This document shows, one piece after another, positions 1 through 19,600 of a stretch of 21,516 bases of DNA. The notes beneath the pieces were generated by a model, which saw only the letters and a list, made by a program, of their open reading frames with translations, made no database searches and was not told the origin of the DNA. The position numbers and the translations under genes are program-made. Position 1 is the first letter of the stretch; every line of letters begins with the position of its first letter. This DNA is from a virus. The DNA lies in IMG/VR virus record IMGVR_UViG_3300031952_000174, positions 1 through 21,516 of that record; one strand, 5' to 3'.

Positions 1-1311
1 TTCTTTCCAACCCGAATCAACAACCAAATATACATCATGGACAAGGGATTTATAATTAGAAGCTTTTAAAACTTTGTGCATTAGCGAGGTTTTATCAACA
101 CTCCCCCATGCGGTGTTTGAAACTGCGTCTTCCGACTTATTAACTTGTATCGCTTCACCCTTACCCATATCTTCGGCAGCAAAATCCTCTTCAACAATTT
201 CTTCCCAATATTCCCAATCTTTCAAATCGGAATTATCAGAATTTTCTGAAGCTTTAGCTGTGCTACCAGCATTTTTAACCCATTTTCCATCTTCTACATG
301 GTGGGTTTTTCTAAATGAGCTAATTGCAATAGCCCAACCGTTTTTCTCTTTGTCTACACCAATCGAATCTGCTTGTCTAGCAATTGCGTTAGCTTGAGCG
401 ATAGAAATGGGAGGGTCTATTCCCTTTAAAGCCGGATTTATATCTGTTTTTGACTTATAGGGGAATGTGATAAGTTCGCCGTTTATTTTTTCTACCGTTT
501 TTTCTGCCCATTCTTTACTATAATCTCCGCCCCAAAGTAACCAATCGACGGTTTCCTTGCTGTTTTTATGTGTGGAAAAATAATTGTTGATTTCTTTTAC
601 CTTTTGAGGGGTTATTATTTTGTTTTTAGTTAAATAACGAGCAAAGGCAACGCCCGTAGATGTACCGCCTCCCTCTTCTTTACGAATACCGAGACCTTTT
701 TCTGCGCTATCTCTTATTTTACTAGGAATTATAATTTCGGTGAAAGAAAATTCTTTCTCTAAATCCTCTTCATATTCTTTTGTAAAAGATAGAATGCTAG
801 CATTAGCCAAGGGTATCGCGGGGGTTACATAACTTCCTAGAACCGTTACTCCTTCATATCTAAAATCGAGAAGTTCTGTTTTCCCATTTCCTTTAGGTTG
901 AGTTTTATACACGCTCATTTCGACACTGACAGGTTTTTTGCCTCCGTCTCTTTTGAAGAAGCTTAACAGTGGACCAGTATACCTTTTCCACACATAAGCT
1001 ATAGCTGATAACATTGTTCTTCCGTCTTCCAGTTTTCTGCTTTTGACTTCGGCACTTTCTGGAATAAACCCACATGGGGATTCCTCCGAATCGTGGGTGT
1101 ATGCGTCATCTAAAACCGAATCATATTTCCAAACAAGAGGGCAGTTCTTGATTGTATTCGCTGTTTTGAGAAGAGTTTCTTCAGAAACGTACATGTCATG
1201 AAGATTATCCCCTGAAGCAAAAAAATCTAGACTTAAAAGAGCAAATTTAGAATCGGGATTTTCCTGAATCATTTCGACGTTTTCTATATCAAAACTAATT
1301 TTTTTTATCAA
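1..1311 (-). CDS. Prohead protease / scaffold-like head morphogenesis protein, C-terminus cut by window edge
   Basis: An open frame of 437 codons runs without a stop to base 1. The start chosen is TTG at 1311, because AGGAGG lies 6 bases upstream; the first in-frame ATG is 13 codons later and has no such site. Residues about 15-190 look like a phage head-maturation protease: His73 in a T-H-D-S context followed by C-G-F-I-P, then P-V-S-V-E-M-S (Ser129/Ser133), a His...Ser arrangement typical of these proteases. Residues about 220-290 match a segment often seen in phage proteins: a G-L-x-I-R-K-E-E-G-G-G-T-S-T-G start, R-Y-L-T-K, then W-L-L-W-G-G-D. A further segment contains N-G-W-A-I-A-I-S-S-F-R-K-T-H. 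It lies downstream of portal, where protease and scaffold genes normally sit. The family call is by motif only, and the catalytic Ser is not certain. Confidence 0.68.
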   Translation of the reverse strand, partial: MIKKISFDIENVEMIQENPDSKFALLSLDFFASGDNLHDMYVSEETLLKTANTIKNCPLVWKYDSVLDDAYTHDSEESPCGFIPESAEVKSRKLEDGRTMLSAIAYVWKRYTGPLLSFFKRDGGKKPVSVEMSVYKTQPKGNGKTELLDFRYEGVTVLGSYVTPAIPLANASILSFTKEYEEDLEKEFSFTEIIIPSKIRDSAEKGLGIRKEEGGGTSTGVAFARYLTKNKIITPQKVKEINNYFSTHKNSKETVDWLLWGGDYSKEWAEKTVEKINGELITFPYKSKTDINPALKGIDPPISIAQANAIARQADSIGVDKEKNGWAIAISSFRKTHHVEDGKWVKNAGSTAKASENSDNSDLKDWEYWEEIVEEDFAAEDMGKGEAIQVNKSEDAVSNTAWGSVDKTSLMHKVLKASNYKSLVHDVYLVVDSGWKE

Positions 1312-1336: not shown

Positions 1337-1531
1337 TTATAATATAGACAATATTCTTACATCTAACGGCATATGTTTAATACACTCTTTTAGCTTGTCT
1401 GTTTTAGCAAAATAGAAATTACCATATCTGTCAAAACTCATTAGGGGTATTTGACAGTGGCGTATAAGCCAACTCTTAACATATTTATTGCATTTATATT
1501 TTTCTTGAATTATTTCTGGATTCGTAATCAT
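1337..1531 (-). CDS. Small 64-residue protein, function unknown
   Basis: The start is ATG at 1531, 9 bases after the ferritin stop codon. The likely Shine-Dalgarno is the GGAGG formed by the last two Gly codons of ferritin, about 13 bases upstream, which is long and suggests translational coupling to ferritin. The protein is basic, with a K-Y-K-C-N-K-Y segment, a R-H-C-Q-I-P-L segment, and R-Y-G-N-F-Y-F followed by a K-T-D-K-L-K-E-C-I-K helix. That layout (helix, a turn with I-P, a Y-G-x-F-Y-F strand, helix) loosely resembles small winged-helix or excisionase-type DNA-binding proteins, but this is weak inference. It is followed after 25 bases by the protease-like gene. The tight packing supports a real gene. 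Confidence 0.6.
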   Translation of the reverse strand: MITNPEIIQEKYKCNKYVKSWLIRHCQIPLMSFDRYGNFYFAKTDKLKECIKHMPLDVRILSIL

Positions 1532-1540
1532 GACATATAT

Positions 1541-2029
1541 TTATCCTCCTATGGAGTCGCTCCATACTTTTACATGCCACCAGTCGTCCCCGCAGAGTAC
1601 GGCATTATCCAAAAAAGTTGTGGCTTCTTCGTATTCTTTTTGCTGTTTAGCAATCATTTCCCGCATTTTTTGTTCAACTACATAATTATTATCTTCCATT
1701 GCCAACTTAAGAATTTCCCCGATACTTGTGGTCGTGAGTATTTCTCTATCTAAATAAAGTTGTGCTAAGCCCACGATTGAAATAAATTGTGTATTTATTT
1801 CATCAATTTCAGGAATAAATACATCAGCATTTAAATCAGTTAACAGAGAAACAAATTCTTTGCCGTGTCCTATCTCTTCCTCGTGTTGGGTTTCAAAAAG
1901 TTTTGCGAGATTATCCAAACCTTTATTACGCAAAAAAGCACACATAAACATATAAATATTTGCATTGTGAAACTCATGCCCTATTTGCTCATTTAGTGCA
2001 CTTCTTAGACTTTCTCCTATAAGTGTCAT
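1541..2029 (-). CDS. Ferritin (non-haem, FtnA-like)
   Basis: A 162-residue four-helix-bundle ferritin, an iron-oxidising and storage protein that normally forms a 24-subunit cage. Visible ferroxidase ligands are Glu19 in the first helix (N-E-Q-I-G-H-E), Glu52 and His55 (E-E-I-G-H), Glu96 (D-R-E-I-L), Gln129 and Glu132 (K-Q-Q-K-E). These correspond to E. coli FtnA E17, E50, H53, E94, Q127 and E130, so a diiron centre should form. The FtnA third-site residues E126 and E129 are replaced by Lys128 and Lys131. The C-terminus ends in an unusual D-D-W-W-H-V-K-V-W segment and S-D-S-I-G-G. AGGAGG lies just upstream of the ATG. It sits between a small endonuclease gene and a 64-residue gene inside the head cassette, which is an unexpected place for ferritin. 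The ferritin identification is firm; its role in the phage is unknown. Confidence 0.92.
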   Translation of the reverse strand: MTLIGESLRSALNEQIGHEFHNANIYMFMCAFLRNKGLDNLAKLFETQHEEEIGHGKEFVSLLTDLNADVFIPEIDEINTQFISIVGLAQLYLDREILTTTSIGEILKLAMEDNNYVVEQKMREMIAKQQKEYEEATTFLDNAVLCGDDWWHVKVWSDSIGG

Positions 2030-2068
2030 ATTTTACCTCCTCTCTTTGTTTCTAATTATTTTCATAGA

Positions 2069-2407
2069 TTAAGAGATTTTTTCAATAAAAGATATTGCTT
2101 CTTTAATTGTTTTTATTTTTCTCAAATCGATTTCTATATATGTTCCGTTTATGTTTGCAAATTTCTTTTTTAATCTATCTTTTTCTTTTTGAAATATAAG
2201 TTCTTGTTTTGAAGTTGTACCGTTTCGTTTAGCCTTCATTTTGTGCCAATTTTGTATACTATAATGCTGGATTCCGTTAATTTCGATATATATTCCATTA
2301 ATAATTGGATTTTCTCCTTGAGAAATATAAATATCATAAGGAAGCCAACGACCCGTGTTTGGATTTTTTAAAATTTTATATTCCGTTTTGGCATTATAAT
2401 TTTCCAC
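2069..2407 (-). CDS. PD-(D/E)XK / Vsr-like endonuclease, probable free-standing homing endonuclease
   Basis: A 112-residue basic protein starting at GTG 2407, inside the last codons of the portal gene (14-base overlap). No ATG is available before residue 56, and the ribosome binding site is poor, so translation is probably coupled to portal. Core motifs are L-P-Y-D-I-Y-I (candidate catalytic Asp) and I-Y-I-E-I-N-G-I-Q-H-Y, the E-x-[DN]-G-x-Q-H-Y signature of Vsr-like endonuclease domains, followed by a K-E-K-D-R-L-K-K-K-F helix and a G-T-Y-I-E-I-D strand. Such domains occur in phage homing endonucleases placed between structural genes. The upstream helix that carries another acidic residue in many relatives is missing, so this may be a minimal or N-terminally truncated form. 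The cleavage site cannot be inferred. Confidence 0.68.
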   Translation of the reverse strand: MENYNAKTEYKILKNPNTGRWLPYDIYISQGENPIINGIYIEINGIQHYSIQNWHKMKAKRNGTTSKQELIFQKEKDRLKKKFANINGTYIEIDLRKIKTIKEAISFIEKIS

Positions 2408-4112
2408 CGCGCTCTAGATTTTGTCCACCCGCTTGTCCTTCGGCAGTTTCATCGCTTATCTTTGATACATCTTTTCTAGGTCTTCCTGCTTCTGGTGTAT
2501 CCGTAGTTTTTCCCTCTGGTTTAGCCGTAGGTTTAACTACAGGTACACCCGGCGCAGGTTTAGGATTTAATTTAGCCTGTACTTTAGCAGCATCTTGTTG
2601 ATTTTTAGCGGCTTGGTCGGCTAAATCCATTTGTTGTTTACCAGTTATTTCTGCCATCTGTTTTTGACCTTCGAGAGCAGGTGGAGCAAGCAAATCCATA
2701 AAACCAGTTGCTTTTGCTTCTTCCAAGTGTTTCCTAAATTGAGCAGGTTTCATTCCAATTGCCGCACCAATCTTTTGAGGTAAAATAATTCCCACATTAA
2801 ACAAAGTCATTATAGATTCTAATCTTTGTTGTCTGTTTAAAAAGAACTGTGTACCCTCAAAACTAAATCTGAATTTGAATGATTTTGTATATTTATTGAC
2901 AAGATAATTCATAAAAATATTAAACTGGTCATATAATGCTGTCATCATTTGCTCATCGACATTTAAGCTTAATTGGGTTTCGAGAACATTGGGTTTAATA
3001 TCACTTGTAAATATCAAGTTTGTATTTACACCACTCGAAGCCAAGGTTGTTTTTAAGTAACTATCATACAACTCATTTTCTGAGTCAAAACTAATACCCT
3101 TCATGTCTTCCAAAGGCGCAGAAGCAACTTTAATAGCCTCATTAATAGAACTTTTAACCAATGCCAAGAACTTACCTAGTAAATCGGGGCTAATGGCAAT
3201 CATATCTTTTACGCTTGCTTTGGCATCTCTATTTAACATTGGAACTTGACCAATAATCATTTTACTTGCCGCAGCCATGCTTGCGCTCTTTTGAAGATTA
3301 CGCATCAAAGATTGCAAAATTAAATCACTAAATAAAGGGGTAAAATATGGTAATCTGGTTGCCAGTTCCGGAGAATATTTAAAACACACGCCCACGCTTA
3401 TAGGCACATCAACCCAATAAATCCAAGTCGAATCTCTAAATTCTGGTGGCATAGAGGGCATATATGGTTTTGCCTTGTTTCCGTTTACCCATATGTCCTT
3501 ATATTTCTTCTTAAAGAAATCGGGGTACATATTAATGTCAACTCCGGGCAATAAGAACCAATACATATTAAAGCTGAATAAGAAACCACCCTCCCATCTT
3601 CCGGTTATTTTGCAATAATCAGCAGGGAGTTCTTGCAAAATAACAGCATCTCCCAAGTCTCTAATAACACCGAAATACGCATCGTTTCTTACCATTTGCT
3701 TAACGGCAATAGATAATTCTTTTTTATAAGCAAATTTATCGAGAATATCTTCTACTGCCCTCAAGTCTTTTTTATATTTTGGAGTGTCGTAGTCTTTAGG
3801 TTCAGCATCCGATGTGTAGGTAACATCAAATGCAAGCATATCTGCCATATAAGTAATAAGACGCTTATAAACCATCGACCTCATTTCAAAATCTTGAGAG
3901 AAGGCACGAAGTTGTAATTCATTGTCTTTAGGATTAGTTATTGCCTGATTGAGAGTCTCCTCGGTAGCAGCCATAGGATTCAAAGTGATGTCCCTCATTC
4001 TGCTGCTGATTAGGTCGGGGTTCAAATAGCTCGTATATCCACGAGCGAAGGATATCATGTCCCATATAGTTGCTTCATCAAGCAAAACCTCTTCTTCTTT
4101 ATTGTCTGTCAT
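2394..4112 (-). CDS. Portal protein
   Basis: A 572-residue protein whose size, position and composition fit a phage portal, the dodecameric ring at one capsid vertex through which DNA is packaged and the tail is attached. It lies directly downstream of the large terminase, the usual order. The body (residues about 60-470) has many aromatic and basic segments, with a long helix-rich middle containing L-I-L-Q-S-L-M-R-N and N-V-D-E-Q-M-M-T-A-L-Y-D-Q-F. The last 100 residues are a Gln-, Lys- and Pro-rich low-complexity tail (G-K-Q-Q-M, then repeated K-P), as in many portals. ATG 4112 is 6 bases after a GGAGGG site and directly abuts the TAA of the preceding 22-codon ORF. The call rests on context and overall pattern rather than one diagnostic motif. 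Confidence 0.82.
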   Translation of the reverse strand: MTDNKEEEVLLDEATIWDMISFARGYTSYLNPDLISSRMRDITLNPMAATEETLNQAITNPKDNELQLRAFSQDFEMRSMVYKRLITYMADMLAFDVTYTSDAEPKDYDTPKYKKDLRAVEDILDKFAYKKELSIAVKQMVRNDAYFGVIRDLGDAVILQELPADYCKITGRWEGGFLFSFNMYWFLLPGVDINMYPDFFKKKYKDIWVNGNKAKPYMPSMPPEFRDSTWIYWVDVPISVGVCFKYSPELATRLPYFTPLFSDLILQSLMRNLQKSASMAAASKMIIGQVPMLNRDAKASVKDMIAISPDLLGKFLALVKSSINEAIKVASAPLEDMKGISFDSENELYDSYLKTTLASSGVNTNLIFTSDIKPNVLETQLSLNVDEQMMTALYDQFNIFMNYLVNKYTKSFKFRFSFEGTQFFLNRQQRLESIMTLFNVGIILPQKIGAAIGMKPAQFRKHLEEAKATGFMDLLAPPALEGQKQMAEITGKQQMDLADQAAKNQQDAAKVQAKLNPKPAPGVPVVKPTAKPEGKTTDTPEAGRPRKDVSKISDETAEGQAGGQNLERGGKL

Positions 4113-4190: not shown

Positions 4191-5498
4191 TTATCCTGAT
4201 ATTATTTGTGAGACTCCTAGAAAAGCTTCAATATCGTCCCATTCTGAATTTTTTTCTTGTAATAAATCCAAATCCATCAGACTTATGTAATAATTCATAT
4301 AGCTTACTGAAGTATAACGGTCTTTCCGAGAACCAGCGGGTTCAATTAGTTTAACTAAACCTTGTGCCGGAGCCATTTCTAAAGCGATGCTTTCGTTTAT
4401 AAACAAACTTGTTTGTAAATGCGCTTGTAAAAGATATGCTCTTATTCCGGTATCGTCTTGGTCTAAAATATCCTTATTACCCGACTTTATTAAGAATTCT
4501 TCTTCGCTATTATCATCAATTAGGAATGTGATTAATTTTTTCTTTAATCTTTCTCTGAACTTTACTGCAATTAAAGAGTTTAGAGGTGCGGTAGCAGAAA
4601 TTGGGAATATACACTGTACAGCGCCCTGCCCAATAGTTCTAGTAATTAATTCATCGTATACTTTTGTATCTACGTTTATGGAATTCATTACTGTATAAGC
4701 GGGGTACTCTACACCTCTTATCTCATCTTTTGTTACCGCAGTTAATGCGTCGAAAACTGAAATTCCAGCATTTGCAAGGTCAAGTACCAGTACATCTCCT
4801 TGAAACTCCTCATAGATTTGTTTTATTCTTAATGCTTGTAAATTCGTATTTTTACCGTTGTGGGATTCCATGTAAACTACTTCGGTTAACCAGCCTCTTT
4901 TACTTGGTAATAATCTTCCACAGGTTATAATTGTATTGTCATTTGTCGAACCTGCTCGCATAGCTACATCAACAGAAACAATGCGCATTTCATCGCTTAG
5001 TTTTGGTATATCGTAATTATTTTTTCTGGTAGTTATGTAAACTTCATCTCGAATAGGTCTCCAACTTCTCTTTATACTTCTTTCGAATAAACCAAGTTTG
5101 TAGAACGATAAAGAGGATGACCCATATGGAATATTTCCGTATTCCATAAGAAATGTTATGGGGTCCATGTTGGACCTCTCTCTTATCATCTGATTTTTTG
5201 TTTTTATACCATGATGAATTGAAATCGGGTAATCCAAAAACAATGCTTTGGTATTAGTATCCCCGTCTGCAATCATTTTTAAGAATTTCTTCGTTTCTGG
5301 ATACCATTCATATGATTTATAATGTGCAGAAGAAATAATAATCTCTTGTGGTTCCTCTCTAAGTTCTGCAATTTCTGAATACTTAGGGTTTTTCATAAAA
5401 GGTGCTTGTCTTGATACAAGAAAAGGACGAATAATAGAATCTATAATTTCATTAGGTATTAAACGTCTTTCTTCTAAAACTGTTACATTGCTGCGGTG
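4191..5498 (-). CDS. terL: Terminase large subunit, exon 2 (Walker B and nuclease domain)
   Basis: This second exon supplies residues 175-609 of the spliced terminase, the packaging motor ATPase and headful nuclease. It opens with H-R-S-N-V then Walker B V-T-V-L-E-E (residues about 179-184, catalytic Glu), followed by R-R-L-I-P-N-E-I-I and R-P-F-L. An S-S-A-H-Y-K-S-Y coupling motif follows. The C-terminal RNase H-like nuclease has its first Asp in I-V-S-V-D-V-A (about residue 351), a second acidic motif in V-L-D-L-A-N-A-G, and a third in Q-D-D-T-G. The frame is open for 22 further codons upstream (to ATG 5564), but those lie in the intron, lack a ribosome binding site and do not resemble terminase. 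The exon boundary at 5498 is inferred from intron folding and frame. The portal gene follows after a 22-codon mini-ORF. Confidence 0.9.
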   Translation of the reverse strand, partial: HRSNVTVLEERRLIPNEIIDSIIRPFLVSRQAPFMKNPKYSEIAELREEPQEIIISSAHYKSYEWYPETKKFLKMIADGDTNTKALFLDYPISIHHGIKTKNQMIRERSNMDPITFLMEYGNIPYGSSSLSFYKLGLFERSIKRSWRPIRDEVYITTRKNNYDIPKLSDEMRIVSVDVAMRAGSTNDNTIITCGRLLPSKRGWLTEVVYMESHNGKNTNLQALRIKQIYEEFQGDVLVLDLANAGISVFDALTAVTKDEIRGVEYPAYTVMNSINVDTKVYDELITRTIGQGAVQCIFPISATAPLNSLIAVKFRERLKKKLITFLIDDNSEEEFLIKSGNKDILDQDDTGIRAYLLQAHLQTSLFINESIALEMAPAQGLVKLIEPAGSRKDRYTSVSYMNYYISLMDLDLLQEKNSEWDDIEAFLGVSQIISG

Positions 5499-6475
5499 CA
5501 TTTTGTTATCTGTAAAGTTTTTTATCTTTACATTCTTGAAATTTTTTTCTTTCAAGTTCAGCATATCTTTTTACCCTATAAGGGTAGGCGCACTCTTGGA
5601 GATATTATATTCTCATAAACATATATGAGATTCAAACCTTACTACTTTTTGAAATTTAATGATTTAATTTATATTTCATACAATCGATTAAAGAGACATA
5701 TGGATTTACTATTGATAAAAAATCTTCTGTTTTTCTAGCTGGTATATAAAGTCTTAAATGTTCTCTGTCTTTGTGGAGACTAGATTCAAAATTATATTTT
5801 TCATTAAAATATTTTTGTATATTTAATTGACTTTCGCTATCAAATCCTTGAATATGTAGAAATATACATTTTGTTTTATTTCGACCATCTTTGTGTTTTC
5901 GAATAGATAGCGTTCCATCATCCATAAACCAAACAGAAATTCCAATAGGGGTTAATTGGTCCAAAATACTATATGGAACAATCTTTTTTTTATTTTCATA
6001 CATTTCTTTATGTATATTTGTTATAAAGGTATGTGAACCGAGAATAGAATGAAACATCTTATAGATTTTATTTTTGTTTCCTTCAAAAATAGCTTTTCCA
6101 GAAAAAACAGAATCTATTTCTCGTGTCCAATAATTTTTATGCAAATTTTCTTTTAGTATTTCCATTTTCCATATCATATAATCGTATTGTTTTGGATTAT
6201 GGGTACAACCAATATTGTAATTTATGGAATTTTTGCCTAAATGGAGATATCCATCTCCAAGCAACATTCCAATTATAAAACTTTTTAAATCTTCTTTTGA
6301 TAAAATCATTTTAAATTTCTCCTTTGCCCAAAGAGCAAATATAATAAAAAGTAATAACTCTATGCGTTGCGTGTGAATAATTTATTAAAATTATTTTTCC
6401 ACTCGGGTTAGCGTCTCAGCTTTCCCGTTTCTTGCGCCATTTTTAATAAGCATTACTGCTTATTGAAGCCATTTG
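5499..6475 (-). ncRNA. Group I self-splicing intron (IA-like) in terL
   Basis: A complete set of group I helices can be drawn (plus-strand coordinates). P1: exon GAGGU 6476-6480 with GCUUC 6465-6469, giving the U.G pair at the 5' splice site. P2: 6457-6464/6445-6452, 8 bp. P3: 6433-6438/5587-5592. P4: CGGG/CCCG 6424-6427/6404-6407. P5: 6419-6421/6410-6412. P6 with an 8-bp extension: 6388-6395/6376-6383. P7: GCAUA 6361-6365 with UAUGC 5561-5565. P7.1: 6346-6357/5639-5650. P7.2: 5624-5630/5611-5617. P8: 5581-5586/5572-5577. P9: 5550-5556/5535-5541. P9.1: 5526-5532/5511-5517. The intron ends in G at 5499. Removing 977 nt joins G-G-R-G to H-R-S-N-V in frame. The extra P7.1/P7.2 helices point to subgroup IA. 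The folding was done by eye; a covariance-model match would confirm it. Confidence 0.88.
5656..6309 (-). CDS. LAGLIDADG homing endonuclease encoded in the terL intron
   Basis: A 217-residue two-motif LAGLIDADG protein. The first motif is F-I-I-G-M-L-L-G-D-G (residues 11-20, Asp19) and the second is S-V-W-F-M-D-D-G (residues 125-132, Asp130/Asp131). The L-T-P-x-G-I-x-x-W-F-M-D-D-G form is characteristic of the LAGLIDADG_2 family of intron-encoded endonucleases. It would cut intron-lacking terL genes at the intron insertion site and so spread the intron by homing. The ATG at 6309 follows AAGGAG by 8 bases, so it has its own translation start. The ORF lies between the P7 5' strand and P3, in the loop of a peripheral P7.1 helix, so it does not interrupt the ribozyme core. 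Both acidic motifs are intact, suggesting activity. Any additional role in splicing (maturase) cannot be judged. Confidence 0.93.
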   Translation of the reverse strand: MILSKEDLKSFIIGMLLGDGYLHLGKNSINYNIGCTHNPKQYDYMIWKMEILKENLHKNYWTREIDSVFSGKAIFEGNKNKIYKMFHSILGSHTFITNIHKEMYENKKKIVPYSILDQLTPIGISVWFMDDGTLSIRKHKDGRNKTKCIFLHIQGFDSESQLNIQKYFNEKYNFESSLHKDREHLRLYIPARKTEDFLSIVNPYVSLIDCMKYKLNH

Positions 6476-6997
6476 ACCTCTACCGCCTTCTCCACTTACT
6501 ACAACATTAATCTTTGAACCATTATAAAAATCCATGCGCCATTGATTTTGATTTGAAACAAGGTTGGAACATTCTCTAGCAATATTGGGGTGTTCATCTC
6601 GTAGAGACCTGCATTTTTCAGAAATAATAAGACCCGCTTGTGCTTTTGTAGAAGAAGCTAAGGCAACAGTAGTGCCGGGATATAAAATACATCTCGCAAT
6701 AGCATACACGGCGATTAACCATGACTTTGCACTAGCACGAGAGGCTATGCCTACAAACTCTGTTGACCTAGCCATTAAATTTAACCAAAAGCGTTGATAA
6801 GGGTATAGCGAGACTTGCATATAATGCTCTACAAAATACGATGGGTTTTGCCTATAGAAGCTGGTCCAACTTTTTATACGGTCACGTTTTTGTTTTGTCA
6901 TTTCCTTTTCGCTAAGAAATTTTAGGGATTCATTACTTCGAGAATAGGGCTTCATTTTTTTAAGCGGAGGGGTTTTTGATTTTTTGAATTTTTTCAT
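6476..6997 (-). CDS. terL: Terminase large subunit, exon 1 (Walker A)
   Basis: This exon supplies residues 1-174 of the packaging ATPase. The start is taken at ATG 6997, which has GGAG 7 bases upstream; an in-frame ATG at 7030 has no ribosome binding site and overlaps the upstream gene. Visible motifs are an adenine-binding Q-like motif L-Y-P-Y-Q-R-F-W-L-N-L-M (64-75) and Walker A A-S-R-A-S-A-K-S (85-92), a form common in phage terminases. The exon ends after G-E-G-G-R-G. Without splicing the frame runs only 10 codons into the intron before a stop, which would give a truncated protein with no Walker B or nuclease. The start is 16 bases after the stop of the 319-residue zinc-ribbon gene, so the two are likely co-transcribed. 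Confidence 0.9.
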
Positions 6998-7013
6998 ATC
7001 TTTTCTCCGATTT

Positions 7014-7973
7014 TTAATTTGTTTCCTCATCGAGATTCACAAAATTATTTACTTCTCTATCGTCAAATTCTCTTTCTATTTCTTCATTTTCGTCAACGTT
7101 AAAATCACGGCTTCCTGTAATAAATCCCCTGAGAGGGCGAACAATATACTTTTGAAAATATTCCTCGGTGTTACCCACGTCTCTGTAAATCTCTCCACGC
7201 GGGTCGGATTTTAGCCATTGGGCTGGTTCTTCGCGCTCTATGTCCGCAATCCATTGTCCGAAACTATCCCCTCCTGCGTTTAAAGCATTAGCTTTAGCTA
7301 CATTCGGAGAAATAGCCAATTTTGTCATTAGTTCTTGTAATTCTTTAACTAGTTTTATCGTATTGTTTCCGGCTAATCTCTCTTTTTTAATGTCTAAAAG
7401 ATTAAAACACACTTGCTTCAAAAGAACAACTTCTGCCCGGGTGTCCGTAGAATGGGTTTGTTTAAATTCTGCAAATTCTTTTTCTAAAAATAAAACATCT
7501 TCTTCTGGAATATCGTTTCCCCAAAATTCTATAACGTCTTGGGGGATGGGTATTTTTTTAATATCCACCTGTTTTTCAGTAAAAATTGTTCCTACATCCT
7601 CATATTGAAAATCGTTTATTCCCCCTTTATCCATCGACTTTTTAGTTGCTGTCAATTTCATCAAGTAGATGGAAAAAATAGCACTTACATTTTTACCATT
7701 ATCTATTAAAGTCTGTATGTGAGCTTTTGTGGCATCAAGAGCCTCATTGGTAAACCTAACATTCAGCGCTTGACACATGCGGTGGGTGGTTTTTTCCATA
7801 CTTTCATATTGTTGATAAAAATAATCGTATAGGTCCCCAATACATTTTTTGCAGACCGAAAATTTTCCATTTTTATCTATAATCATTCCGTCATAGGCAT
7901 TATAAAAATTATCAGCCGACAGGACCTTCATGCATTTTCGACAGTAGTATTTTTCTTTTTCATTATTTTCCAT
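7014..7973 (-). CDS. Zinc-ribbon protein, candidate terminase small subunit or packaging factor
   Basis: A 319-residue protein with an N-terminal four-Cys zinc ribbon, C-R-K-C at residues 11-14 and C-K-K-C at 41-44, spaced by about 26 residues. The middle is helical (E-F-A-E-F-K-Q-T, then L-V-K-E-L-Q-E-L-M), and the C-terminus is strongly acidic (repeated D-E-N-E-E, then D-D-R-E-V). It sits immediately upstream of terL, the usual position for the small terminase subunit, which recognises the packaging site. The zinc ribbon would suit DNA binding and the acidic tail would suit protein contacts. The length is greater than most small terminases (100-200 residues), and I do not recognise a specific family, so the role is inferred from position. 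The ribosome binding site is weak (AAAGG). Confidence 0.55.
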   Translation of the reverse strand: MENNEKEKYYCRKCMKVLSADNFYNAYDGMIIDKNGKFSVCKKCIGDLYDYFYQQYESMEKTTHRMCQALNVRFTNEALDATKAHIQTLIDNGKNVSAIFSIYLMKLTATKKSMDKGGINDFQYEDVGTIFTEKQVDIKKIPIPQDVIEFWGNDIPEEDVLFLEKEFAEFKQTHSTDTRAEVVLLKQVCFNLLDIKKERLAGNNTIKLVKELQELMTKLAISPNVAKANALNAGGDSFGQWIADIEREEPAQWLKSDPRGEIYRDVGNTEEYFQKYIVRPLRGFITGSRDFNVDENEEIEREFDDREVNNFVNLDEETN

Positions 7974-9118: not shown

Positions 9119-9400
9119 TTATCTTTCTTTTACGTCTATCTTAATCGTTCTTTCGTCCACCCTGCTTGCGCTTGTTGTCATTTTACAAGCTATAGAATAT
9201 CTTGTTCCAACACAACCGCTAGTTAACCATGCAACAACGCTCCCGGTTATTGTGCTTGTACTATAAAGATTAACTATTCCGCAGGGGGAAGTGTCTATTA
9301 CATAATCAGAAATAGTTTCACCATTATCCAGCCACTGTGACCAATCAAAACCATAATCTAATGTTGCATTCGGGTCTTTAATAAAAACATTTGATGACAT
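9119..9400 (-). CDS. Small phage structural protein (fibre/tail adaptor-like)
   Basis: A 93-residue beta-rich protein beginning with K-D-P-N-A-T-L-D-Y-G-F-D-W-S-Q-W-L, then G-E-T-I-S-D-Y, and ending R-V-D-E-R-T-I-K-I-D-V-K-E-R. This K-D-P-[DN]-A-x-L-D-Y-x-x-D-W-S-x-W-L opening with an R-x-D-x-R-[ST]-I ending is a pattern I recognise from small proteins conserved in many tailed phages next to tail-fibre or head genes, probably an Ig-like fold that binds fibres or decorates the virion. Its ATG overlaps the stop of the 723-residue gene (TAATG), and its GGAGGTGAT ribosome binding site encodes the G-G-D C-terminus of that protein, so expression is coupled. The assignment to a virion role is inferred from the family pattern and context. 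Confidence 0.72.
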   Translation of the reverse strand: MSSNVFIKDPNATLDYGFDWSQWLDNGETISDYVIDTSPCGIVNLYSTSTITGSVVAWLTSGCVGTRYSIACKMTTSASRVDERTIKIDVKER

Positions 9401-11571
9401 TAATCACCTCCCGCTATATAAATTGTTCTATCCTTATTGTCATTTCTTACTATAAAAGTTATTCTATTTTCATGCTTAATATAATATACCCTGTTTTCGT
9501 ATTCAATAATATCGTTTCTATTTTCAGCTTCAATATATAATCTTCTATATTCTATATAAATTGTTCTATCTTTATTGTCATTTCTTACTATAAAAGTTAT
9601 TCTATTTTCATATTTAATATAATATACTCTGTTTTCGTATTCAATAATATCATTTCTATTTTCAGCTTTAATATATAATCTTCTATATTTACCAGAAGTC
9701 ATTAAAAAATAAGTTAAGTGAAGCGCAAAAGCGATTTGTACTTGAATAGTATTATCGATTATTAAACTAAAAGTTAGTACATATGGGCTTAATGTTATAT
9801 TACCAGAGATTTGTGTTTGAATAGCATCATCGGTCTCTAAACTAAAAATAGGTGTTGTCCATGTTAAATTGTCTGATATTTGGGTTTGTGTAACATCCTG
9901 AACTATTATACTATAATGAGAACTTAATATTATATCTTCAACAACTTGCAATTGAAAAACATAATCAACTTTTAATGTATAATAAACAAATAATGTTACG
10001 CTATTCGAAGTTTGAACATGAACAGTATTATTAATTGCTAATATTTGATGCTGAATTAATTCTACTTTGTCGCCCGTTTGTAATTGGGTTGTATTATTAA
10101 CCGTTAATATATGATGCTGAATTAAAGCAATTGCATTAGCGATTTGTAGTTGAGTAGAATTATTAACTGCTAAAGTATAGTGTTGACTTAATACTATATT
10201 ATTGCTGCTTTGCAATTGAATTGCGTTTTGTACAGTTAATATTTGATGTTGCGTAAGATTTACATTTCCAGCAGTTTGTAATTGTATTGTGTTCTGTACT
10301 GGAAGTGTACCACCCTGAGCCAAGTTTATATTATCAGAAATTTGTAGTTGTGTAGCATTTTGAATTATTAATATCTGATGCTGTGTTAATGCCACATTTT
10401 CAGAAGTTTGTGCTTGAACAACATTATTAATTGCTAAGACCCGATGTTGAATTAAAGCTATCTTATCGCTAATTTGTGACTGAGTAGCACTATTTACAAC
10501 TAATACCCGATGTTGAATTAAAGCTATATTATCGCTAATTTGTGACTGAGTAGCACTATTTACAACTAATACCCGATATTGTGTCAATACTATATTATTA
10601 CTGGATTGTAATTGACTTGTGTTGTTTATTGCTAAAACTTGATGTTGAGTCAAAACTATGTTATTAGAAGTTTGTAATTGTGTAGCATTTTGTACTGTTA
10701 ATACATAATCTTGAGTTAAATCAACTTTATCGCTTGTTTGCGCTTGAGTTGAATTTTGTATAACCAATACTTGATGTTGAGTTAATATTACAGCATTAGA
10801 TGTTTGTAGCTGTATAGCGTTGTTGACTAAAATTGTATAATATGCAAATAATATAACATTGTCAGATGCCTGTGTTTGCACCGTATTATTAATAACCAAA
10901 ATATAATGTTGTATTAATAAGATATTATCAGAAGTTTGTAATTGTGTTGTATTACTTGTTACTAAAATATAATGTTGTGTTAATGCTACATTATTGCTGG
11001 TTTGTAACTGAGTAGCATCTTGAATTGTCAATATTCGATGCTGTGTTAATGCTACATTATCACTTGATTGTGCTTGCGCAACATTAACGACTGTTAAAGT
11101 ATAATAAGCAAGTAAGACTACATTATCACTAGTATGTGACTGAGTAGCATTATTTGTAATTAATATTTGATGTTGTGCTAAAGATATATTATTACTGGTC
11201 TGTAACTGAGCAACACCCTGAATAGTCAATACTTGATGTTGTGTTAATACTACATTTTCACTTGTTTGTGATTGAATAGAACTGTTAACTACTAATAAAT
11301 AATCCTGAATTAAAACTATATTTTCAGAAGTTTGTGCTTGTGTGGCATTAGTAACTGTTAAAGTATAATGAGCAAGCAAGACCACATTATTACTAGTATG
11401 TGACTGAGTAGCATTATTTATAACTAATATTTGATGTTGCGTTAAGGCTACATCGTCACTGGTCTGTACTTGGGTAGCATTATCAACACTTAAAAAAGGG
11501 ATTTCACTTCCAAAGTCAATATTGAAAGCAGCCCCCGGATTTAATAGTTTAATATCATGGGAGTATGCCAT
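9400..11571 (-). CDS. Repeat protein with about 26 copies of a 22-residue unit, likely fibre or virion surface protein
   Basis: A 723-residue protein. Residues 1-28 are unique (M-A-Y-S-H-D-I-K-L-L-N-P-G). Residues about 29-610 are tandem 22-residue units with core A-T-Q-x-Q-T-S-x-N-V-x-L-T-Q-H followed by a hydrophobic strand ending in V-N-N. Residues 629-719 are two nearly identical 46-residue blocks rich in E-N-R (Y-R-R-L-Y-I, E-Y-E-N-R-V-Y-Y-I, then D-R-T-I-Y-I). The alternating polar/hydrophobic pattern and absence of Cys fit an elongated beta-structured fibre. It shares both the 22-residue unit and the E-N-R motif with the giant protein two genes upstream, so the two are paralogous. The start has GGAGG 7 bases upstream. 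The function is inferred from architecture and from its place beside structural genes; no enzymatic domain is visible. Confidence 0.78.
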   Translation of the reverse strand: MAYSHDIKLLNPGAAFNIDFGSEIPFLSVDNATQVQTSDDVALTQHQILVINNATQSHTSNNVVLLAHYTLTVTNATQAQTSENIVLIQDYLLVVNSSIQSQTSENVVLTQHQVLTIQGVAQLQTSNNISLAQHQILITNNATQSHTSDNVVLLAYYTLTVVNVAQAQSSDNVALTQHRILTIQDATQLQTSNNVALTQHYILVTSNTTQLQTSDNILLIQHYILVINNTVQTQASDNVILFAYYTILVNNAIQLQTSNAVILTQHQVLVIQNSTQAQTSDKVDLTQDYVLTVQNATQLQTSNNIVLTQHQVLAINNTSQLQSSNNIVLTQYRVLVVNSATQSQISDNIALIQHRVLVVNSATQSQISDKIALIQHRVLAINNVVQAQTSENVALTQHQILIIQNATQLQISDNINLAQGGTLPVQNTIQLQTAGNVNLTQHQILTVQNAIQLQSSNNIVLSQHYTLAVNNSTQLQIANAIALIQHHILTVNNTTQLQTGDKVELIQHQILAINNTVHVQTSNSVTLFVYYTLKVDYVFQLQVVEDIILSSHYSIIVQDVTQTQISDNLTWTTPIFSLETDDAIQTQISGNITLSPYVLTFSLIIDNTIQVQIAFALHLTYFLMTSGKYRRLYIKAENRNDIIEYENRVYYIKYENRITFIVRNDNKDRTIYIEYRRLYIEAENRNDIIEYENRVYYIKHENRITFIVRNDNKDRTIYIAGGD
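9414..9689 (-). repeat. 138-bp tandem duplication in the 3' end of the 723-residue gene
   Basis: Two direct copies, 9414-9551 and 9552-9689, differ at only 6 of 138 positions by my count, and all six differences are transitions. The unit is exactly 46 codons, so the frame is kept. It duplicates the E-N-R motif block at the C-terminus. Confidence 0.9.
9742..11487 (-). repeat. Tandem 66-bp (22-codon) repeat array in the 723-residue gene
   Basis: About 26 degenerate in-frame units. On the plus strand each is seen as a recurring TGATGTTGAGTTAA-like word plus a GTTTGTAATTG-like word at 66-base spacing. Two adjacent units near 10439-10570 are almost identical, showing recent unit duplication. No spacers intervene, so this is a coding repeat and not a CRISPR array. 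Confidence 0.92.
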
Positions 11572-13601: not shown

Positions 13602-16600
13602 TTATAAAACCCCTCTTCTATTATCATTATCATCAACCCAAGGAGGTATAACATAGAATCTATTTTCTGCTTTAATTGTATAACTCCTATCCTCGAATAT
13701 AATAATATATGTCCTAGAACTAGGTGTCTCCAATACTCGGAAATAAATCAAAGCAATTTTCGTGGCTATTTGTGCTTGGGCAGCGTTATTGATTATTAGA
13801 GTATAATAATTAGAAGTTATTATTATATTATCGCTAGTTTGTTTTTGAACAGTGTCTTGAACAACAAGAATAACTCTTGATATTATATCGCTAGTTGTTT
13901 GTAATTGTACAGCATTGTTGACTATTATAGTATAATGTGCGAATAATACCACATTTTCAGCGGTTTGAGGTTGAATAGCGCTATTGGTTATTATGCTATA
14001 GTGGGCAAATAATGTTACCTTGCCCGCCGTCTGTAATTGAATGGTATTATTAATTATTAGAATATAATGTTGAATTAAAGTTATACTATTTGCTGTTTGC
14101 AACTGAATAGCGTTTTGTACTTGCAATATTTGATGCTGTATTAAAATTACACTATCAGAGGTTTGTAATTGAACAGCATTATTAACCGCCAAAACACAAT
14201 GCTGAAGTAATATCACATTGTTGGAAGTTTGTAATTGAGTAGCGTTGTTAACTGTTGTTAAGATAAAGCGATAAACTAAAGTTATATTATCTGCTGTTTG
14301 CAACTGAAGAGCGTTTTGTATTACTATTACATGATGTTGTATTAAAAGTATATTATTTGCTGTTTGTAGTTGTATAACATTTTGAACTGATAATATATGA
14401 TGTTGAGTTAAAATTATACTGTCTGCTGTTTGTAATTGAATTATACTATTAATTACTAAGACATGATGCTGAGTTAAAATTATACTTTCAGAAGTTTGTA
14501 TTTGGATTGTATTTTTAACTGCTAAAATATAATTTTGAGATAATGCTATATTATCAGAGGTTTGTAATTGAACAACATTATTAACCGCCAATATATGATG
14601 TTGGATTAAAACTATATTGGTTGATGTTTGCAGTTGAGTTGCGTTATTAACTGTTAATACATGATGCTGTATTAAAATTACATTATCAGAGGTTTGTAGT
14701 TGGGTTGCGTTATTAATTGTTAATACATGATGTTGAGTTAAAACAATATTGCCCGCTGTTTGTAATTGAGTTGCATTATTAATTGACAACACATGATGCT
14801 GAACTAATACTATATTTTGAGCGGTTTGTAATTGAATAGCATCTTGTATTGATAAAATACCCGCCGTCGCAAGTATTATATTTTGAGCGGCTTGTAATTG
14901 AGTAGAATTTTGAACAGATAATATCTGATGCTGAATTAATACTATATTTTCAGATGTTTGTAATTGAGTAGCACTTTGGACAAATAATATCTGATGTTGT
15001 GTTAATATTACATTTTCAGACGTTTGCGGCTGTATAGAATTATAAACTGTTATAGCATAATGTGCAAATAAAATTGTATTTTCTGCTGTTTGCGCTTGAG
15101 TAGCATTATTAACTAATAATACTTGGTGTTGAGTTAGAATTACGTTTTCCGAAGTCTGTAATTGGGTTGTATTATTAATTGTTAAAATATAATGTTGAAT
15201 TAATGTTACATTTTCAGAAGTTTGTAATTGAGCAATATTATTGATAGCCAATACTTGATGTTGAGTTAATGTTACATTATCGGCAATTTGAACTTGAATA
15301 ACATTATTGATAACCAACACTTGATGTTGAGTTAATGTTACGTTATCAGCAATTTGAACTTGAATAGCGTTATTGACTAAAAGATAACCCGCAAAATGTT
15401 GGGTTAGTTCTATATTATTGCTGGTTTGTAATTGAGTAACATTTTGAACTGATAATATATAATGCTGTGTTAATTCTACATTATTTACAATTTGCGTTTG
15501 GATAGCATTTTGCACTTCCAAACTAAATGCAAGCATGTGCTGCGTTAATATTACATTCTCGGAAGTTTGTGGTTGTGTTGCGTTTTGAACTGTTACAATA
15601 TAGTGTGCAAATAATATTGTATTATCGGAAGTTTGCAATTGAGTTGCGTTTAAAACAACCAAAACATAATGCTGAACTAGATTTATATTGCTTGCAGTTT
15701 GAGACTGAGTAGAGCCATTGATTAACAGGATTTGATGTTGTATCAACCCGATATTATCGGAAGTTTGCAATTGTGAAGCGCCGCCGACCAATAATACTTG
15801 ATGTTGAATCAATACAATATTTTCTGCAACTTGCAAATGGATAGCACTATTTGTTGATATGTTATAATGTTGTGTCAATCCAACGTTATCGGCGCTTTGT
15901 AGATGTGTAGCATTACTAGTCGTCAATATCTGATGTTGAGTTAATACAATATGCTGTGCTGTTTGTGTTTGAGCAGCATTTTGTACAACCAATAAACCAA
16001 ACATATGAGCAATCAGGGTTATATTATCTGCTGTTTGTAATTGAGTAGCATTACTGATTGCTAGTATATGGTGCTGTGTTAATGCAACATTTTCGACAAC
16101 TTGATATTGTGTAACATTGTTAATAACCAATATCTGATGCTGAATTAATGTTATATTTTCAGATGTTTGACTCTGAATAGCATTATTAATTGTTAATATA
16201 TAATGAGCAAATAATGTTATATTCTCACTGGTCTGCGACTGTGTTGCATTTTGAATAACTAATACTTGGTGCTGAGTTAATGTAACACCATTTGCAGTTT
16301 GTAGTTGGATTGTATTCTGAATACCCAATACTTGATGCTGTATTAATATTATACTATCCGAAGTCTGCCCCTGTGTAGTATTGTTGGTTATTAATATTTG
16401 ATGCTGAATTAGTGCAATAGTATCAGAGGTTTGCGATTGGATAGTGCCTTGGACAACCAATACCTGATGTTGAGTAAGCAAAATATTGTCTGAGGTTTGT
16501 AATTGGGTTGTATTCTGTACTGCCAAACTGTAATGTGCAAATAATGTTATATTGTCTGATGCTTGAGCTTGAGTAACATTGTTTACTACTATAACATAGT

Positions 16601-19600
16601 GAGCCAGTAATCCTACAGCATCAGAAGTTTGCGCTTGCGTTGCACTACCGATTATCAAAATATGATGTTGTGTTAATGCTATATTTTGAGAACTTTGTAG
16701 TTGAGTAGAATTATCAACTAATATATTATAATACCCTTGATAATTTAGTATTATATTATTTGCGGTTTGAATTTGGGTAGAATTATTAACTATTATTTGA
16801 TGTACAACTAATAAAACCTTATCCGCTGTTTGTGATTGTGTAGTATTATTAATCGATAAAACGTAATGTTGGGTTAAAGCAACATTGTCGGAAGTCTGTG
16901 TTTGTGTAGCATTGTTAATTATTATCTGGTGTACAACTAATAAAACTTTATCGGAAGTCTGAACTTGGGCGGCATTGTTAATCCCCAATACTTGATGTTG
17001 AGTTAGAACTACAATACCTGATGTTTGTAATTGTATTGCACTTTGAATTGTAAGTAGATAATCTTGAGTTAAAAGAATATTGTCAGATGTTTGTAATTGT
17101 GTAGAAGAAGCAATAACCAAAATTTGATGTTGAGTTAGAACTACAACACCGGAAGTCTGTAATTGTATTGCACCTTGAATTGCTAATAAATAATTTTGAG
17201 TTAAAACTACAACACTAGAAGTTTGTAATTGAATTGCATTAGCAACTACTAATACTTGATGTTGAGTTAAAACTACATTTCCCGAAGTTTGTAATTGTGT
17301 AGCATTATTGACCAATAAACCATAATGCTGAATCAGAACTATGTTATCGGAAGTTTGTAACTGAATAGCATTATTAATACTCAATACTTGATGTTGAAGC
17401 GGGATTATGCTATCCGATGTTTGATTTTGAATAGCGCTGTTTACTACAATAGCATAGTGAGCAAATAATATTGTGGTATCAGAGGTTTGAAGCTGAATAG
17501 CATTATTGATTCCCAATACTTGATGCTGAGTTAAGGTTATATTGTCTGATGTTTGCGCCTGTGTTGCGTTATTTACTACTATGTTATAATGAGCAAACAA
17601 TATTATGTTTTCGGCGGTTTGCGCTTGAATGGAACTATTAACCGACAATACTTGATTCTGAGTTAATGCTATGTTCTCGGATGTTTGATTCTGAACAGCA
17701 TTATTTATTACTATACTATAATGTGCAAAAAGTGCAACGTTATCAGAAATTTGTAATTGGGGTGTATTTTGAACAATCAATATCTGGTATTGAGTTAAAA
17801 TTACATTGCCTGATATCTGCAATTGAGTAGCATTATTAACCCCTAATACTTGGTGCTGAGTTAATGCTATTGTCTCGGCAGTTTGTGTTTGTGAAGCACT
17901 ATTGACTAGTAATACTTGATGTTGAGTTAAAGCTACTTTATCTGATGTTTGAGCTTGGGCTGTGTTATTTACCCCCAACACTTGATGTTGAGTTAATACT
18001 ATGCTCTCAGATATTTGACTCTGAACAGCATTATTTATTACTATACTATAATGTGCAAAAAGCGCAATATTATCGGAAGTCTGTAATTGTATTGTACTTT
18101 GAACAATTAATATTTGATGTTGAGTTAATGTTACATTACCCGATGTTTGTGATTGAGTGGTATTATTAATCACTAACGCTTGATGCTGAGTTAGTGCAAC
18201 TATTTCGGTAGTTTGTGCTTGTGTGGTGTTATTAACCACTAATACTTGATGTTGAGTTAAAGCTACTTTATCCGATGTTTGAACCTGCGCCGTGTTATTT
18301 ACCGCTAACACTTGATGTTGAGTTAAAATCACATTTTCAGAAGTATGCACTTGAGTGGCATTGTTAATTGTTATCGAATAATGGGCGCTTAAGATTACGT
18401 TCTCTGATGTTTGTGCTATAGTACAATTATTAACTACCAGTGTGTAATGAGCGGTTAATACAACATCACCCGCCGTATGAATTTGAGTAGCATTATTAAC
18501 CAATATGATATAATGCGCACTCAAGATTATGGCTCCCGATGTTTGTGTGTGTACTGTATTTTGGACGGATAATAGATAATTTTGAGTTAATACAATATTA
18601 TTTGAAGTGTGTACATGAATAGAATTATTGAGAATTAACGATGCTTCGATTGAATGGTATATAAGATTTAGATGGGGAGAAATTTCATATGGGAAATAAT
18701 CTAAAGGCATACCAAACATGCCAAAATATTCATTTCTCAATATATAATCAACTATACCAGTAATAATTTCTAATGTTATCTGCCCTTGTGTTGTATTATT
18801 AACTATTAATACCCAAACCCGAACTATAATTATTTTATCAGAAGTTTGTACCTGAGTGGCATTGTTAATCATCAATGCATGATGTTGGGTTAAAACTATA
18901 TTATCGGGAGTTTGTAATTGAATAGATGCATTGATAGCCAATATTTGATGTTGGGTTAAAGTTACAGTTCCCGAGGTTTGTAATTGAGTAGTGCTATTAA
19001 CCTTCAATATCTGATGTTGAGTTAAAGCTATAATTTCCGAAATCTGTGCCTGAATAGCATTGTTAAGTACTAGAGGAGTATAGTGTTGAGCCAGAGCTAC
19101 AGTATCTGAAACTTGCAACTGAGTTGCAGTATTAACAACTAGAACTTGATGCTGCGTTAAAGTTACAATTTCAGATGTTTGTAAGTGGATTGCGGCATTG
19201 GCTGCTATAGCTCCGCTTGGAATTATTATTACACTCCCGGCGGTCTGTAACTGAGTGGCACTATTAATTACTAAGATATTATGTTGAATTAAAGCGACAT
19301 TGTTGGCGGTCTGTAATTGAGTAGAAATATTAACAAACAAAATTTGGTGTTGGGTTAAAACAACAATTTCAGAAGTCTGTGATTGAGTGGCATTATTAAC
19401 TGTAATTGAATAGTAAGCGAATAGTGCAACATTCCCGCTTGTTTGTAACTGAGTAGCAATAGCAATTGCTAAAAGCTGATGTTGAGTTAGTAATATATTA
19501 TCTGCTGTTTGAGCTTGTGTCGCATTGCTTATGGTTAATATTTGATGTTGGGTTAAGGCTACAGCGCCAGAAATTTGTAACTGAGTAGCATTGTCGGCTA

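Follow-up and report, generated by a model that had tools for sequence, protein, structure and literature searches.

A ferritin with a complete diiron centre encoded in a recurrent head-operon slot of uncultured phages

Introduction

Phages are usually linked to iron through the iron of their tails or through Dps carried as cargo. For the Dps encoded by Gratiaviridae and by Lactobacillus plantarum phages, relief of oxidative stress was the proposed role (PMC8008677, PMC6669764). The protein described here, which is encoded in a 21,516-base IMG/VR virus record (the whole stretch analysed, hereafter the window), is likewise a ferritin-superfamily protein carried by phages; unlike it, phage Dps belongs to the Dps lineage and, in the Lactobacillus phages, is encoded near DNA metabolism genes and outside the head operon. 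Encapsulated ferritin (EncFtn), also a ferritin-superfamily enzyme, is linked to an HK97-fold encapsulin shell (PMC5012862). EncFtn has two main helices, whereas the window protein, which is known from its sequence and a structural model, is a full four-helix ferritin. The classical non-heme ferritins (FtnA and those of P. furiosus and A. fulgidus) share with it the four-helix bundle, the long BC loop, the diiron ligands and Tyr24, with TM scores of about 0.83-0.87. However, the window protein is only ~22-28% identical to them, has no E helix, has replacements at E126 and E129 and is encoded in a phage head operon. Two predicted phage ferritins in BFVD, A0A8D9C9X5 and A0A8S5Q7U4, have the ferritin fold, with TM scores of 0.84-0.87 to the window model and 19-23% identity.

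The nearest described genes by location occupy the same slot, from the portal to a phrog_3313-like protein, in two cultured phages. In Enterocloster phage PMBT24 the gene (ORF39) is called 'ferritin', a name that stands in a gene list among other functions (PMC11035940), and in Thomasclavelia phage TR-TP1 it is called 'Ferritin domain-containing protein'. Structural models of relatives from their family show this fold as well. We found the slot to be occupied by three deep lineages, A (that of the window), B and C, and unlike the window protein, the PMBT24 and TR-TP1 proteins belong to type C, in which the diiron ligands are lost. Phage Dps, phage ferritins in structure libraries and the PMBT24 copy, annotated 'ferritin' without comment, are thus already known; in the open-licence literature we found no paper describing a conserved slot, three lineages, loss of the diiron site or swapping.

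Results

The type A ferritin gene of the window (1541..2029, minus strand) encodes 162 aa, predicted to form a four-helix bundle with the full set of diiron ligands, without an E helix and with a short, Trp-rich C-terminal tail, CGDDWWHVKVWSDSIGG. The protein matched the Pfam Ferritin family PF00210 with E 1.3e-19 (71 bits against a cut-off of 24.5), and its best solved relative by sequence was the P. furiosus ferritin. The strong ribosome-binding site of the original prediction was confirmed as GGAGGT (2035..2040, minus strand), 5 nt ahead of the ATG. The predicted ferroxidase ligands are intact as well: in an alignment with the E. coli and P. furiosus ferritins, entered by hand, and eight cellular ferritins from plasmid records, the diiron-centre residues E17, Y24, E50, H53, E94, Q127 and E130 (FtnA/PfFtn numbering) were all kept. 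The hand-entered P. furiosus sequence matched the stretch shown in the structure-relative search. The third iron site of FtnA is formed by E49, E126 and E129 together with E130 (for the ligand roles of both sites, see PMC7762939); the window protein keeps E49 and has Lys at both E126 and E129, so that two of the four ligands are absent. The description 'FtnA-like' is therefore loose: the diiron ligands match those of E. coli FtnA, but the third site does not, and to the FtnA equivalog NF007638 the protein scored 34.6 bits, below the curated cut-off of 178.

The AlphaFold2 model (pLDDT 85.5) has helices at residues 5-34, 38-64, 84-111 and 115-152, a long BC loop of 19 residues (65-83) without a BC helix, and a disordered C-terminal tail. 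An E helix was sought in the model and the alignment, and none was found. The top PDB matches in Foldseek were the A. fulgidus and P. furiosus ferritins (1s3q and 2x17; TM about 0.83-0.87). Since a short BC helix in the B-C loop marks Dps (PMC3179174), and this helix is missing from the model while the best Pfam and Foldseek matches are ferritins, the protein does not fit Dps. EncFtn, a two-helix chain with the diiron site between subunits, is likewise a poor fit given the full four-helix bundle with all ligands in one chain. Assembly as a 24-mer is uncertain because of the lost E helix; the human H chain lacking this helix still assembles and oxidises iron, while E. coli Bfr lacking it is a dimer (PMC3179174).

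The minus-strand packaging and head operon runs in the order phrog_3314 protein, split terminase, portal, 112-aa ORF, ferritin, orf64 and phrog_3313 protein. The portal (2394..4112, minus strand; phrog_2739, E 3.6e-54) and the phrog_3313 protein (1..1311, minus strand; E 2.2e-18) are the conserved flanks of the ferritin slot. The latter runs off the window after its N-terminal 437 aa and has 760 aa in a longer contig. The original prediction had placed the ferritin between the portal and a protease-like gene. The region was right; however, the 112-aa ORF and orf64 intervene, and the supposed protease had no match in Pfam and matched only phrog_3313, of unknown function. The tight spacing described earlier holds towards orf64 (1337..1531, minus strand), a conserved neighbour of 64 aa with no function assigned that begins 9 nt past the ferritin stop, but not towards the portal, from which the ferritin is parted by the homing-endonuclease-like 112-aa ORF (2069..2407, minus strand; phrog_9084, E 7.3e-7), which is missing in most relatives.

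Several other features of the operon were observed. The large terminase gene is split into ORFs 6443-7030 and 4191-5564 (minus strand) around a LAGLIDADG ORF (5656-6309), while in several relatives the two parts overlap without an insert. An intron-like invader is the likely cause of the split (4191-7030, minus strand); no Rfam intron model reached threshold there. A 318-aa protein resembling MTA/SAH nucleosidases (PF01048; 8058-9014, minus strand) is encoded immediately upstream of the packaging genes; it has an N-terminal hydrophobic segment and is possibly exported or membrane-bound. Giant repeat proteins (9400-11571 and 13602-21194, minus strand), with units such as NATQLQTSDNVVLTQHQILVI, perhaps have a tail fibre or surface role; in G001, a longer contig, the larger one extends to 3,394 aa.

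The search for portal-adjacent ferritins that had been suggested revealed a recurrent slot, and the view of a ferritin gene within a phage head cassette was borne out by the PF00210 match and by the conserved flanks. Dozens of independent contigs repeat the order portal, ferritin, 64-aa ORF and phrog_3313 protein. When IMG/VR was scanned for ferritin, 23 loci with 58-100% ferritin identity were obtained, and nearly every contig that was long enough had the portal before the gene and orf64 and the phrog_3313 protein after it. In most relatives the portal directly abuts the ferritin, the gaps to neighbours are short or overlapping, and most type A ferritin genes are preceded by a purine-rich motif like GGAGGT. 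A chimera at this locus was excluded by two further IMG/VR records with the same junctions and with a ferritin and portal identical to those of the window, as well as by many more records with window-like junctions and 58-88% ferritin identity. A portal scan, which was not selected for ferritin, gave 63 distinct portals, 48 of them with a readable slot: 23 held type A, 13 type B and 3 type C, and 9 were without ferritin, i.e., the ferritin fold was present in 39/48, counts that come from metagenome contigs with some near-duplicates and are affected by ORF calling. Some 'empty' slots contain ORFs of 107 aa and 313 aa, for which Pfam gave no match. The G007 and G008 contigs (143-176 kb) had no match to a ferritin family. 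In 12 long records searched for a second ferritin or rubrerythrin, the rubrerythrin matches proved to be the same ferritin again, and one ferritin match below the cut-off lay within a 1,647-aa frame of G002. Four human-fecal contigs filed as 'Bacteriophage sp.' (MT836766, MT838721, MT839617 and MT838998; L017, L020, L021 and L022) look like fragments of bacterial chromosomes and were rejected on account of their neighbouring genes; two-component system, aldolase and thioredoxin reductase-like genes lie beside their ferritin.

The slot stands a few genes ahead of the capsid gene. The capsid candidates are phrog_4088 proteins (L143:7919-9070, minus strand; L138:11235-12359), and phrog_4088, for which no function is listed, probably represents the major capsid protein in the ferritin-carrying group because its match in Enterocloster phage CB473P1 shares place and length with the PMBT24 'major capsid protein' gene. 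It also matches proteins of G001 and G003. The latter, a ferritin-carrying phage contig of 90,410 bases (L138-L142), has 28 predicted tRNA genes clustered at ~64-87 kb.

Types A and B are only ~30% identical, yet the seven diiron-centre residues are invariant in 35/35 sequences (23 A and 12 B), while the third-site residues vary. Both types have a short phage-specific tail in place of the cellular E helix. A tree of A, B and 15 cellular ferritins resolved three clades (supports 100/98, 100/98 and 99/96), which argues against a recently acquired host gene. No cellular ferritin above 30% identity was found in the plasmid records searched for a donor. The phylogeny that had been proposed for finding the donor instead placed A and B outside the cellular clade and gave no recent one. 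Type C was first recognised from CB473P1, whose gene in this slot is annotated as hypothetical. A rank-based scan for this type found no members with a single-protein query and two with an alignment query. The model of one member, L127 (pLDDT 89.9), matched ferritins in Foldseek with TM of about 0.77-0.87 and E ~1e-4. The kinship of type C appeared in a profile comparison of the broader alignments A6 and A5 (probability 94.5, E 7.7e-8), while the narrow alignments A3 and A1 gave a probability of 7.5.

The contents of the slot are exchanged. Between L059 (type B) and L009 (type A), the DNA is 84-85% identical on both sides and only the ferritin gene fails to match; the homologous flanks thus enclose a one-gene replacement of B by A. 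In L082, which lacks the ferritin, the flanks are 80% and 88% identical to those of L048, and a clean deletion scar, made up of the ribosome site and the gene's initial 10 nt, remains. The slot state changes at least 15 times on the portal tree, a quick tree with some long branches. Moreover, type A has two tail forms in its last 15-17 codons, CGxDWWxVKVWSDSIGG and xPEWWQVALWDAAGG, which switch at least six times on a tail-free tree of type A, three of these switches being forced by well-supported branches. L012 and L014 are ~97% identical over 9 kb but differ in a short tract, located where the ferritin gene ends, that swaps the tail. GIY-YIG endonucleases adjoin the ferritin gene in L054 and L101.

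The median dN/dS was 0.145 for the type A ferritin, 0.127 for the portal, 0.138 for the phrog_3313 protein and 0.236 for orf64, rough values from a pairwise counting method with high dS. Judged from the sequences, the diiron ligand set is under purifying selection. Two scans of GTDB genomes for a host or prophage (one with the portal alignment, one with the type B ferritin), both of which use short peptide patterns, found nothing, and no anaerobic ribonucleotide reductase was found as a host clue. Where the host of a portal relative is named, the relative is mostly a phage of Bacillota; this and the strong ribosome sites suggest that the window virus infects a member of the Bacillota.

Discussion

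The reading that we tentatively prefer, at a probability of roughly 0.45, is that the window gene is an exchangeable fitness gene whose product, a phage ferritin expressed late and competent in catalysis, removes Fe2+ and peroxide in the infected cell. The ferritin would be made late, together with the head proteins, as its tight position inside the portal-to-capsid operon suggests, and its subunits may assemble as a small cage or a lower oligomer. The diiron centre would oxidise Fe2+ with O2 or H2O2 and hold the ferric iron, which could spare the host and the replicating phage DNA some Fenton damage during virion assembly. Iron oxidation is indicated by the intact ligands, which are under selection in two deep lineages. 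Alleles would be exchanged when the conserved genes on either side recombine, perhaps aided by the homing endonucleases adjacent to the slot. Dps of gut phages has been interpreted along these lines (PMC8008677). The oxidative protection or iron management of the original prediction is plausible from the sequence.

This late cytoplasmic ferroxidase is ranked ahead of a virion enzyme. The position between the portal and the phrog_3313 protein would also fit a virion component and counts against the cytoplasmic reading. It is possible, though less probable, that the ferritin is a putative virion protein, in or on the head with the portal and scaffold, that protects the packaged genome or is delivered with it in an encapsulin-like manner. 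Its fixed place few genes before the capsid gene, the occupation of that place by three deep lineages and the phage-specific tail that replaces the E helix in A and B and is swapped alone are all consistent with this, and a predicted ferritin was found by mass spectrometry in the unrelated phage Sajous1 (PMC10892097). However, the precise absence in L082, the contigs G007 and G008 without a ferritin match, and the swaps of A for B and of tails between otherwise homologous neighbours argue against it. A ferritin gene that some close relatives lack and that is exchanged on its own is no fixed part of the head machinery, and the L082 scar favours a dispensable fitness gene over an essential structure; in-place swapping, loss and a ligand-free lineage likewise favour an exchangeable fitness gene over a core structure. 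Recombination between conserved flanks can account for the fixed slot that the three lineages share, without a virion role. A variant that we hold somewhat more doubtful is that the head carries its own ferroxidase, with two ligand-intact lineages and one ligand-free lineage competing for a dedicated slot and the exchangeable C-terminal tail setting the binding place. The idea of a docking tail was unsupported: the 375-aa capsid candidate is identical in L012 and L014 despite their differing tails, so no co-adapted docking partner is seen.

In type C, one His is kept in the diiron ligand columns and otherwise only scattered acidic residues occur; most members retain no ligand other than, at most, a single His, and the C-terminal half is still recognisable. 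A fold and slot kept without ligands suggest that, for some phages at least, the role does not depend on iron. This could be extended to a role in head assembly, as a scaffold or chaperone with the ferritin fold, with type C (Foldseek E 1e-4, TM 0.87) as its pure form and A and B keeping an inherited metal site for stability, but such a role is improbable for the group, given that every diiron ligand is invariant in the deeply diverged A and B while the third-site residues vary, and that the gene was cleanly lost in L082. We consider it more improbable still that late ferritin acts as an iron sink, either to deprive the cell or superinfecting phages of iron or to store it until lysis releases it; the head-operon position and the complete diiron centre would fit, and the search for iron genes covered ferritin and rubrerythrin models. 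A sporadic cargo lately taken from a host and of no particular use to the phage, which the exchange and loss of the gene as a unit could suggest, is very improbable and was already disfavoured by the deep phage-only clades, the purifying selection and the 39/48 filled slots, and of the decayed active site that was to mark such cargo, only the ligand loss of type C was found, A and B being intact in 35/35.

Conclusions

In a widespread group of uncultured phages, the head operon has a dedicated position for a full ferritin. The catalytic centre of this protein is kept in two deep lineages and lost in a third, and the gene is swapped between close relatives. Within the phage life cycle, iron handling therefore appears to be a component that is under selection and yet can be exchanged. 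Phage iron management during infection, or a ferroxidase in the particle, becomes directly testable, with PMBT24 and TR-TP1, which carry type C, as the ligand-free contrast.
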